From positions 50,371 through 114,370 of the forward strand of contig BQJJ01000011.1 in assembly GCA_021604645.1 (NCBI GenBank): a stretch of DNA of 64,000 bases, read 5' to 3'. The notes beneath the pieces are model-generated. The model was not told the origin of the DNA, ran no database searches, and saw nothing but the letters and a program-made list of their open reading frames with translations. Positions within the stretch are counted from its first letter, which is position 1; each line of letters starts with the position of its first letter. The translations under genes were made by a program, and so were the position numbers. The DNA comes from Methyloligella sp. Its GTDB lineage: Bacteria; Pseudomonadota; Alphaproteobacteria; Rhizobiales; HXMU1428-3. This document shows positions 2,508 to 64,000 of the stretch, piece after piece.

Positions 2508-2711
2508 TACGAAGAAGGGAGTGCTCTACTTCAGAGTACGGACATGACGCCAGCGCGGTTGTTAGTGGGCAAACTAAAGCTCAAATAAATGGCGTCCGGT
2601 GCACCAGATCAGCCCGAACGGAGCATAGCGAGTACGGATAAGCTGATCGTAAGAAAAGCACCGCCCCTCGGAGGCCTATGAGCTTCAGCTCATAGAATAG
2701 CCCGTGAGAGA
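2508..2711 (+). repeat. Family A multi-hairpin element, copy 1 (carries two internal insertions)
   Basis: TACGAAGAAGGGAG-[GTGCTCT..AGAGTAC]-GGACATGACGCC...GGCGTCCGGTGC...GCACCGCCCCTCGGAGGCC-[hairpin]-GAATAGCCCGTGAGAGA; same linkers as the copies at 5667, 37153, 41659 and 46043. Confidence 0.85.
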
Positions 2712-5666: not shown

Positions 5667-5779
5667 TATGAAAAAGGAGTTCAGCTCACTTCGGGCTGAA
5701 GGACATGGCGAAGCCCGGTGCGTTGCACCGCACCTCGTAGGCCCCAAGCGCCTTTCGCGCTTGGAATAGCCGTGAGAGA
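5667..5779 (+). repeat. Family A multi-hairpin element, copy 2
   Basis: ATGAAAAAGGAGT-[TCAGCTC acttc GGGCTGA]-AGGACATGGCGAAGCCCGGTGCGTTGCACCGCACCTCGTAGGCC-[CCAAGCGC..GCGCTTGG]-AATAGCCGTGAGAGA. Confidence 0.88.
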
Positions 5780-16329: not shown

Positions 16330-16405
16330 GCGCGGATGCTACACCGGTAGCCTTATAGGCAATCTAAAGGTGAACTAAAAACTAGCATCTGGAGCGCAAC
16401 TAAAA
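16330..16405 (+). repeat. Family B hairpin element containing a second family B element in its loop
   Basis: Outer GCGC-GGATGCTA ... TAGCATC-TGGA-GCGC-AACTAAAA; inner CACC-GGTAGCC..GGCAATC-TAAA-GGTG-AACTAAAA at ~16342-16381. Confidence 0.75.
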
Positions 16406-16406
16406 A

Positions 16407-16444
16407 GCGCGGATGCTTTGTGGGCATCTGAAGCGCAACTAAAA
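16407..16444 (+). repeat. Family B hairpin element, adjacent copy
   Basis: GCGC-GGATGC-TTTGTGG-GCATC-TGAA-GCGC-AACTAAAA followed by TGGAGAGAAAAATG (RBS/start of the next gene). Confidence 0.8.
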
Positions 16445-16752
16445 TGGAGAGAAAAATGAACACTTTAAAGAAAACAGTTGTAACAGCTTGTGCTATCGCA
16501 ACGATCAGCTTTGCAGCTCTTGGAGCAACAAGCACAGGTGCAAGCGCTGGATGGAAAAAACACCGCCATCACCACCACTTCCATGGTCGCTTTTTTAAAC
16601 CACACCACTACGGATACAACTACGGCTATGGCTACCGCTGCAAACCAAAATACCGCAAAATTTGGGTATGGAGTCCTCGCAGAGGTCGTAATGTGAAACG
16701 CCTGGTAAGGGTAGGTAAATGGTGTAACGGTAGATATTACAACTACTACTAA
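16444..16752 (+). CDS. Small secreted His/Tyr-rich protein (likely start 16456)
   Basis: MNTLKKTVVTACAIATISFAALGATSTGASA signal peptide followed by WKKHRHHHHFHGRFFKPHHYGYNYGYGYRC. Confidence 0.7.
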   Translation: MERKMNTLKKTVVTACAIATISFAALGATSTGASAGWKKHRHHHHFHGRFFKPHHYGYNYGYGYRCKPKYRKIWVWSPRRGRNVKRLVRVGKWCNGRYYNYY

Positions 16753-21603: not shown

Positions 21604-21640
21604 GCGCGGTTGCAAGTGGACAACCTAAAGCGCTACTAAT
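21604..21640 (+). repeat. Family B hairpin element
   Basis: GCGC-GGTTGC-AAGTGG-ACAACC-TAAA-GCGC-TACTAAT. Confidence 0.75.
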
Positions 21641-21652
21641 ACACACTAAAAC

Positions 21653-21692
21653 GCGACGGTTGCTAGTGGGCAACCTGAAGGAGCACTAAAAA
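21653..21692 (+). repeat. Family B hairpin element, directly upstream of murJ
   Basis: GCGAC-GGTTGC-TAGTGG-GCAACC-TGAAG-GAGC-ACTAAAAAG; outer stem imperfect. Confidence 0.65.
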
Positions 21693-37152: not shown

Positions 37153-37303
37153 TACGAAGAAGGAGTGGCACCACTTCGGTGCCAGGACATGGCAGCAGGG
37201 CTGCCCGGCGCTTAGCGCCGCACAGTGCGGTTGCTAGTGGGCAACCCAAGCACAGCTAAAATGGAGGCCCATGAGCTTCAGCTCATGGAATAGCCGTGAG
37301 AGA
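37153..37303 (+). repeat. Family A multi-hairpin element, copy 3 (with a family B element inserted)
   Basis: TACGAAGAAGGAG-[TGGCACC acttc GGTGCCA]-GGACATGGCAGCagggGCTGCC (overlapping) CGGCGCttaGCGCCGCac-[B]-GGAGGCC-[CATGAGC ttca GCTCATG]-GAATAGCCGTGAGAGA. Confidence 0.9.
37225..37262 (+). repeat. Family B hairpin element inside family A copy 3
   Basis: GTGC-GGTTGC-TAGTGG-GCAACC-CAA-GCAC-AGCTAAAAT. Confidence 0.8.
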
Positions 37304-41658: not shown

Positions 41659-41773
41659 TACGAAGAAGGGAGTGCCCTTTCAGAGGCACGGACATGACGC
41701 CTTAAGGCGTCCGGCGCAAGCGCCGCCCATCGGAGGGCTTTTCGCTGTTTTAGCGAAAAATAGCCCGTGAGAC
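41659..41773 (+). repeat. Family A multi-hairpin element, copy 4
   Basis: TACGAAGAAGGGA-[GTGCC..GGCAC]-GGACATGACGCCttaaGGCGTCCGGCGCaaGCGCCGCCCATCGGAGGGC-[TTTTCGCT..AGCGAAAA]-ATAGCCCGTGAGA. Confidence 0.88.
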
Positions 41774-46042: not shown

Positions 46043-46160
46043 TACGAAAAAGGAGCTCAGCCCATTTCGGGCTGAGGGACATGGCAGCAGAGCTGCCCGG
46101 CGCGTTGCGCCGCTCCTCGGAGGCCCAAGCGCTTTAAGCGCTTGGAATAGCCGTGAGAGA
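46043..46160 (+). repeat. Family A multi-hairpin element, copy 5 (cleanest copy)
   Basis: TACGAAAAAGGAG-[CTCAGCCC atttc GGGCTGAG]-GGACATGGCAGCagaGCTGCCCGGCGCgttGCGCCGCTCCTCGGAGGCC-[CAAGCGC ttta GCGCTTG]-GAATAGCCGTGAGAGA. Confidence 0.92.
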
Positions 46161-60254: not shown

Positions 60255-60354
60255 TGCGTATCTCTTTTCAAAGTAATTCCCTCTTTTGGGAATAGCCCGG
60301 TTGCCATTTTGAGCTAACAAAGTGGGCAACTGAAGCACAAATAAAAGATACGCA
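60255..60354. repeat. Nested palindromic segment between parA and rsmG, including a B-like hairpin
   Basis: Outer TGCGTATCT...AGATACGCA; inner AATTCCCtcttttGGGAAT-AGCCC and GGTTGCC...GTGGGCAAC-TGAAGCACAAATAAAA. Confidence 0.6.
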
Positions 60355-60363
60355 AAATAAAGT

Positions 60364-61002
60364 TTACGACCTCGGTTTAATATCATTAAGTTTAACTATG
60401 CGCCCCAAAGGATCGGTCAAACTTTCATAAGTCTCGTGACTAAAGTCCCAATCCTGTGATGCCTCTTCAATCTCTGCACGAGTGCCCTTTCCTTTAAGAA
60501 ATACACCTTTTGCTCCCTTTTCAAAAAGGGCTTGTCCAAAAGTCAAAAGAGTATTTAGAGGTTTTAGAGCTCGTGCAGTTACAACATCGATAGATTGGAT
60601 GGTACTCTCAATTGCAAAAACTTCAATTCTACAATTATGTATTTCCACATGCGCGCCAGTTTGCCTGGCAACATCCTTTAAAAACGAGCACTTACGAGAA
60701 TTGGATTCGACCAAATGAACACAAGAACCGTGTTTCTCCATGAGTAAAATGCCCAAAACAAGCCCGGGAAAGCCACCACCAGCCCCCATATCGACAATAA
60801 TTTTCGCCGAATCAAGATGATTGAGGACCTGTGCGCTATCAGCAAAATGCCGATGCCAAATCTCATCTAAGGTATTAGGTGCTACTAAATTCTGCGCTTT
60901 CTGCCACTTGATAAGCAGAGTTTCATAAAGTTTTAACCGCTCAACTGTTTCACGTGAAACATCAAACTGCTTCTGAAACTCTTTAGGCCCCGAAATAATC
61001 AC
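60364..61002 (-). CDS. rsmG: 16S rRNA (guanine527-N7)-methyltransferase
   Basis: FDVSRETVERLKLYETLLIKWQKAQNLVAPNTLDEIWHRHFADSAQ; IVDMGAGGGFPGLVLGI. Confidence 0.97.
   Translation of the reverse strand: MIISGPKEFQKQFDVSRETVERLKLYETLLIKWQKAQNLVAPNTLDEIWHRHFADSAQVLNHLDSAKIIVDMGAGGGFPGLVLGILLMEKHGSCVHLVESNSRKCSFLKDVARQTGAHVEIHNCRIEVFAIESTIQSIDVVTARALKPLNTLLTFGQALFEKGAKGVFLKGKGTRAEIEEASQDWDFSHETYESLTDPLGRIVKLNDIKPRS
60946..60961. promoter_or_regulatory. parS site, perfect 16-mer
   Basis: TGTTTCACGTGAAACA. Confidence 0.95.
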
Positions 61003-61561: not shown

Positions 61562-61639
61562 ATTTCTATTTTTGGTACAAAAGCGGCCCCATAAAGCACA
61601 GCATCACGCCACTATCTGATACTATCTAAATAAACAAAA

Positions 61640-61655
61640 TGTTTCACGTGAATCA
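61640..61655. promoter_or_regulatory. parS-like site, one mismatch
   Basis: TGTTTCACGTGAATCA. Confidence 0.85.
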
Positions 61656-61686
61656 TAAACAAGGCCCAAGAGCCCATACCCAACCT

Positions 61687-63627: not shown

Positions 63628-63954
63628 AATCCTTAATTTAAAAAGTAATCTGGAAACTGGATTTAACTATATAAGAGTTATGTATCTCTAAAGTTATAAA
63701 TTCCAAGCAGTTTCAAATTTCGAGCCAATACAACGCCATTATAAATGATAAAGAATGTAGGCAATTGTATATCTACAAAGCTCAAGAAACCGTCTTTATA
63801 TTCTAACAATGGGAAGCAATCAACCAATCGCTCAAAATCAAGCCTATGTCAGGATTCAGAAAACAAAAGAATTCAACAAACATTTAATTAATCAACGTTC
63901 AATTAAATGATACGGAAATCCTCTCTAATGTATTTGTTTTCTACCTGTCTATAA

Positions 63955-63970
63955 TGTTTCACGTGAATCA
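63955..63970. promoter_or_regulatory. parS-like site, one mismatch
   Basis: TGTTTCACGTGAATCA. Confidence 0.85.
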
Positions 63971-64000
63971 TAATGTTCTAAACTATCGCTACAACTAACA

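Follow-up and report, generated by a model that had tools for sequence, protein, structure and literature searches.

Hairpins within hairpins in Methyloligella: a short repeat that may insert into the loops of single-stranded DNA hairpins

Introduction

How does a hairpin come to lie, whole, in the loop of another hairpin of its own family? In this article I will discuss this question for positions 16330-16444 of a 64,000-nucleotide stretch of a Methyloligella genome (the window, meaning the whole stretch that was analysed), where the original prediction had suggested an element that targets the loops of hairpins, perhaps those of its own family. The spread of the common small palindromic repeats has mostly been inferred so far, and the combination met here, of orthologous loops that are empty or filled, near-uniform polarity and no known mobilase, makes a single-strand, hairpin-into-hairpin route directly testable. 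I will argue that the repeat, family B, is probably a short non-autonomous mobile element, REP-like, and that insertion into the loops of hairpins formed by single-stranded DNA at the replication fork is the best explanation of its behavior.

The nested site

The focal site holds three units of family B, all on the + strand. The outer unit (16330..16405), recognized from sequence, fold and family homology, consists of GCGC (16330-16333), GGATGCTA (16334-16341), TAGCATC (16383-16389), TGGA (16390-16393), a second GCGC (16394-16397) and AACTAAAA (16398-16405), and its loop holds an inner unit (16342..16380; sequence and fold) made up of CACC (16342-16345), GGTAGCC (16346-16352), TTATA (16353-16357), GGCAATC (16358-16364), TAAA (16365-16368), GGTG (16369-16372) and a further AACTAAAA (16373-16380). 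The stem of the inner unit itself is not perfect, having one A-A mismatch and one G-T pair. A third, simple unit follows at 16407-16436, with its tail at 16437-16444; it is recognized from its sequence and by a covariance-model match (G000:C11:66777-66814, G000 being this genome), and has one counterpart in the sister genome G002 and none in G003. Its 3' end adjoins the ribosome-binding site (16446-16449) of the next gene (16456..16752, + strand), which encodes a conserved predicted protein of 98 aa without a Pfam family and was the anchor for the sister-species comparison.

Folding of the + strand of the site reproduces the nesting precisely (DNA z -3.0 to -3.1; RNA z -3.2 to -3.9), so that sequence and fold agree on a B-in-B pair followed by a third copy, as had been proposed; the inner unit folded alone as DNA is weak (z -1.1). 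The tail AACTAAAA taken alone is not enriched, with 8 occurrences in the window against 6.8 expected.

Three repeat families

Units of family B share one plan, namely a 4-bp outer stem, an inner stem of about 6 bp, a loop ending in GTGG, a 3' bulge TGAA, the outer arm and the tail AACTAAAA, giving an asymmetric two-stem hairpin of ~30 nt, which an A-rich 3' tail extends to ~38 nt, the consensus GCGCGGTTGCTnGTGGGCAACTGAAGCGCnACTAAAA and the conserved core GTGGGCAWC.TGAAG. The pattern GCATCTGAAGCGCAACTAAA, allowing up to 3 mismatches, has 106 matches in the genome and 0 when run backwards as a control, and a covariance model built from 40 units finds at least 177 copies, so the genome-wide search for a two-stem unit that had been proposed returned a large family. 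The same model finds at least 189, 186, 174, 150, 47, 46 and 4 copies in seven other genomes of the genus; this genome, G002, G003 and G006 belong to the high-copy members and G001, G004 and G005 to the low-copy ones. Exact B cores number 184, and G002 carries 122 pattern copies. Among 150 sampled genomes of the order, this genus alone has the core at high frequency, and a scan of named genomes found close copies in Hyphomicrobiales (the MAGs OFTM213, OFTM288 and HXMU1428-3, Rhodomicrobium sp. DHS20C08, and some Hyphomicrobium and Filomicrobium); literature searches turned up no account of this element from Hyphomicrobium or Rhodomicrobium. Exact cores also occur on four IMG/VR contigs (L129, L130, L131 and L132), one of them with two in tandem, and carriage between hosts by prophages or phages is possible.

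Family B shares the genome with two further families, and A-rich tails end all three alike. Family A is a + strand element of ~115 nt with four hairpins in fixed order, following the plan GAAGAAGG-hp0-GGACATG-hp1-CCGG-hp2-CCTCGGAGG-GGC-hp3-GGAATAGCC-GTGAGAGAAA; its copies in the window lie at 2511-2710, 5670-5778, 37156-37302, 41662-41772 and 46046-46159 (all +), and its end motif has 142 genome copies. The stems are nearly all different between copies, yet still paired, as if the hairpins were interchangeable modules. Like REPs, family A mostly stands behind a gene on the same strand (33 of 42 upstream genes; G000 loci L135-L164), and often the two genes around it are convergent. Family C (AAGATCAGCCCGAACGGAGCGAAGCGAGTACGGATAAGCTGATCGCAAGAAAA), seen in the window at 2595-2655 and also at L135, L138, L139 and other loci, recurs in family A, where it occupies the loop of hairpin 2.

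Gain and loss between sister species

Upstream of the 98-aa gene G003 has no unit, G002 has one simple unit, this genome has the nested pair and a simple unit, and G006 has two other nested units and a simple one; relatives thus do show the presence/absence polymorphism on which the insertion hypothesis had been staked. An empty-loop allele of the exact outer unit (16330-16405) was looked for in the sisters and found in none, so that the arrival of the inner unit by insertion at the focal site itself is something that I infer.

Empty and filled loops are seen directly elsewhere. Across ~190 kb aligned between this genome and G002 there are many further gains and losses of ~30-50 nt, and the two genomes are ~88% identical, which places single events beyond dating. 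Most clearly, in the family-A element at 41662..41772 (+) the hairpin-3 loop CGCTGTTTTAGCG (~41730-41760) is empty here and reads CACTA[B unit]AGAGCG in G002. At 2511..2710 (+) the difference runs the other way, with a B unit (2553..2589, +) in the hairpin-1 loop and a C unit in the hairpin-2 loop of the four-hairpin element, both loops being empty in the G002 orthologue, which has a B unit at a third place instead. Tandem copy number also varies between species, two units at 21604..21692 (+) corresponding to four in the G002 orthologue, and the whole stretch of a B-like unit with an enlarged loop (60295..60351, +) is absent from G002.

Not every empty site is base-exact, and some hairpin-3 sites of family A lose an arm, which resembles replacement more than a clean insertion. 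Family B has inverted arms, and of the two marks of a MITE, terminal inverted repeats and a target-site duplication, the second was not clearly seen in the filled/empty pairs, where boundaries are not base-exact. As to a conserved tetranucleotide target at the left end, which a derivative of IS200/IS605 would have, the bases to the left of B are A or TA in many cases, and no strict motif was seen in those pairs.

Loops are also preferred across the family as a whole: 52 of 382 units lie between arms that could form 6 or more Watson-Crick pairs with each other, and shuffled right flanks give a mean of 12.9 and a maximum of 20. These units are found inside other B units and inside each of the four hairpins of family A (0, 1, 2 and 3). 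In family A, insertions fall in loops or at two recurring replacement positions. In the family-A copy at 37156-37302 the CCTCGGAGG mini-hairpin position, which separates hairpins 2 and 3, holds the B unit 37225..37261 (+). Recurring insertions look like ready-made composites and were therefore not counted as independent events, the recurring nested forms being probably composites copied whole. Only ~14% of B copies are in a detectable loop; the rest are found in A-rich DNA, in many cases immediately following family A. Taken together, the differences between sisters, the empty and filled loops and the loop enrichment largely support insertion into the loops of hairpins, with B units themselves among the targets.

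Orientation and replication

Among the matches listed, B lies on the majority strand of its contig in 99 of 100 cases, and on each contig family A runs in the same direction as B, with few exceptions. In 78 of 80 copies the element lies on the A-rich strand, and masking the element itself leaves 76 of 79, whether nearby genes run with or against it: orientation follows strand skew, not gene direction. One rare B copy (L022 ~1436, minus strand) runs in reverse; it occupies the loop of hairpin 0 in a family-A element.

Over the whole window the + strand is rich in C and in A, and parB, parA, rsmG and mnmG stand at the right end together with parS-like sites. Three such sites (TGTTTCACGTGAAACA-type) lie at 60944-60964, 61638-61658 and 63953-63973, around rsmG and mnmG and beside parA/parB. 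Since the C-rich + strand has an origin-proximal gene set at its right end, it is probably the lagging strand; judging from parABS/mnmG and skew, the element most likely belongs to the lagging strand, and the complementary strand would be the template that is exposed.

Mechanism and alternatives

The original prediction held that the outer 4-bp stem covaries. At the focal site this stands for GCGC/GCGC and CACC/GGTG, and the third pair it had named, GTGC/GCAC, belongs outside the interval, at 37225-37253; TGCC/GGCA, GGGC/GCCC and others are seen as well. A covariation count on units chosen by pairing is partly circular, and the non-circular repeat used 107 copies from other genomes, picked by their core sequence without any requirement on the outer stem: outer pairs 2-4 are Watson-Crick in 88/77/69% of these copies versus 50/31/35% with shuffled partners, and pairing fades at position 5. 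An excess of G-T over A-C, sought as a sign of RNA selection, is absent in B (16 vs 13) and also in hairpin 3 of family A (10 vs 15). Because selection on an RNA strand should favor G-T and none is favored, the covariation suggests a process on DNA, and template switching is able to keep the arms of a DNA hairpin matched (PMC8794818).

The reading that I favor would then run as follows: single-stranded DNA at the fork, most likely the lagging-strand template, would fold into hairpins whose loops would be the accessible target; an element would be joined into such a loop in one polarity, fixed by its asymmetric structure; and template-switch correction during replication may maintain the match of its arms. 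The nested pair at 16330-16405 would be one product of such insertion. A bolder version, which I put forward tentatively and with clearly less confidence, is that these are a class of bacterial selfish DNA, single-strand hairpins that transpose into loops at the fork, by an enzyme of other than Y1 type or by host replication and repair alone, and so build the A/B/C mosaics.

Which enzyme might be responsible was approached through three candidates, Y1 transposases (RAYT/IS200), reverse transcriptases and IS110, and none tracks B copy number. None of the seven sister genomes, G002 and G006 among them, has Y1_Tnp, and within the genus it occurs only in this genome, as two RAYT-like genes (G000:C1:11499-15370, L183) that have their own ATTACGGTGACAGT end repeats and no B within 3 kb; no RVT_1 reverse transcriptase was found in G000, G002, G003 or G007, and IS110 has a single occurrence, in G002. 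Barring a divergent HUH enzyme with B copies about its gene in G002 or G006, RAYT is thus refuted as a presently active mobilizer, given the sisters without Y1 and the unrelated ends in this genome, and the reverse transcriptase and IS110 were set aside on the four genomes and the one occurrence just named. With no candidate tracking B, either the mobilizer lies outside those tested or the process is passive.

The passive alternative ranks first among the rivals, unlikely as I judge it: through replication errors, be they stalled lagging-strand synthesis, hairpin cleavage or long-range template switching, copies of abundant hairpins would enter other hairpins and be duplicated in tandem without a dedicated enzyme. 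It would account for the missing mobilase, for tandem copy numbers that differ between species, for the strong replication polarity and for stems that covary without G-T/A-C intermediates, as predicted for template switching (PMC8794818). However, known quasipalindrome template switches are local, whereas B reaches unlinked sites, and the conserved core and A-rich tail suggest that sequence is recognized.

More doubtful still is that B is a REP-type repeat moved in trans by a Y1 tyrosine transposase, a RAYT. A bulged, imperfect palindrome of 30-40 nt, intergenic and in high copy, is what such a repeat looks like, and replication polarity is known for IS200/IS605 (PMC6006769); but the GTAG or CGTC tag is on neither strand of the consensus, the Y1 genes of this genome keep to their own ends, and the seven sisters have none, not even G002 with its 122 pattern copies.

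A fixed structural or regulatory RNA with nested stems, such as a 5' UTR element, a terminator or a small RNA, is very improbable. The third unit abutting the ribosome-binding site, the good RNA fold and the covarying stems would suit it, yet G003 has no unit and each sister a different arrangement, orientation is tied to contig and skew rather than to gene direction, G-T is not favored over A-C, and Rfam covariance models match neither the window nor a family-A copy in a test stretch. Equally improbable is spread through RNA as a bacterial SINE-like element, which the A-rich 3' tails of B, A and C, the want of clear target-site duplications (at boundaries that are not base-exact) and the RNA route suggested for Allomyces elements (cited in PMC2800124) might recommend, but against which stand the four genomes without RVT_1 and stem pairs with no strand preference.

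Comparison with known systems

Returning to loop insertion by a mobile hairpin, several known systems share part of this behavior. IS1397, ISKpn1, IS621 and ISPpu9 target REP sequences and so, like B, insert into palindromes (PMC1525189); they are, however, full insertion sequences with a transposase, whereas B is a 38-nt hairpin that enters hairpins. The IS200/IS605 elements IS608 and ISDra2 recognize single-stranded hairpins and use the lagging-strand template, which would give the same orientation bias (PMC6006769), and B has the insertion polarity relative to replication expected of an IS200/IS605 derivative, with the origin placed from parABS/mnmG and skew; unlike them, B carries no gene, and no Y1 transposase was found in the genomes richest in it.

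REPs and REPINs are likewise imperfect palindromes of 20-40 nt, in high copy in bacterial intergenic DNA, and are thought to be mobilized as single-stranded DNA (PMC3116915, PMC3733652, PMC6006769). B shares with them the small imperfect palindrome, the high copy number and the extragenic position, but it forms head-to-tail tandems, nests in its own loop and keeps a strict contig orientation; a cognate repeat-flanked Y1 gene was found for it neither in this genome nor in the seven sisters and, with tag and RAYT both lacking, B was rejected as a REP proper.

The nearest behavioral relatives are the mobile hairpins of mitochondria, to which B is likened by the insertion of hairpins into hairpins, a likeness of behavior only, since the organism excludes membership. 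Loop insertion with uniform replication polarity is not known as a feature of these elements. The double-hairpin elements of Allomyces and the RHE of sponges (PMC2800124) and the GC clusters of yeast (GC42; PMC4478555) are, like B, tens of nucleotides long, hairpin-forming, intergenic and variable in copy number between close relatives, and they share the merging and shuffling of elements, as described for GC42. Unlike B, GC42 has short AG/ACT direct repeats at its flanks. If the favored reading is true, such elements would be a source of multi-stem sequences that resemble structured RNAs and possibly arose as DNA parasites, and the mobile hairpins of mitochondria, long debated, would have in family B their counterpart among bacteria.
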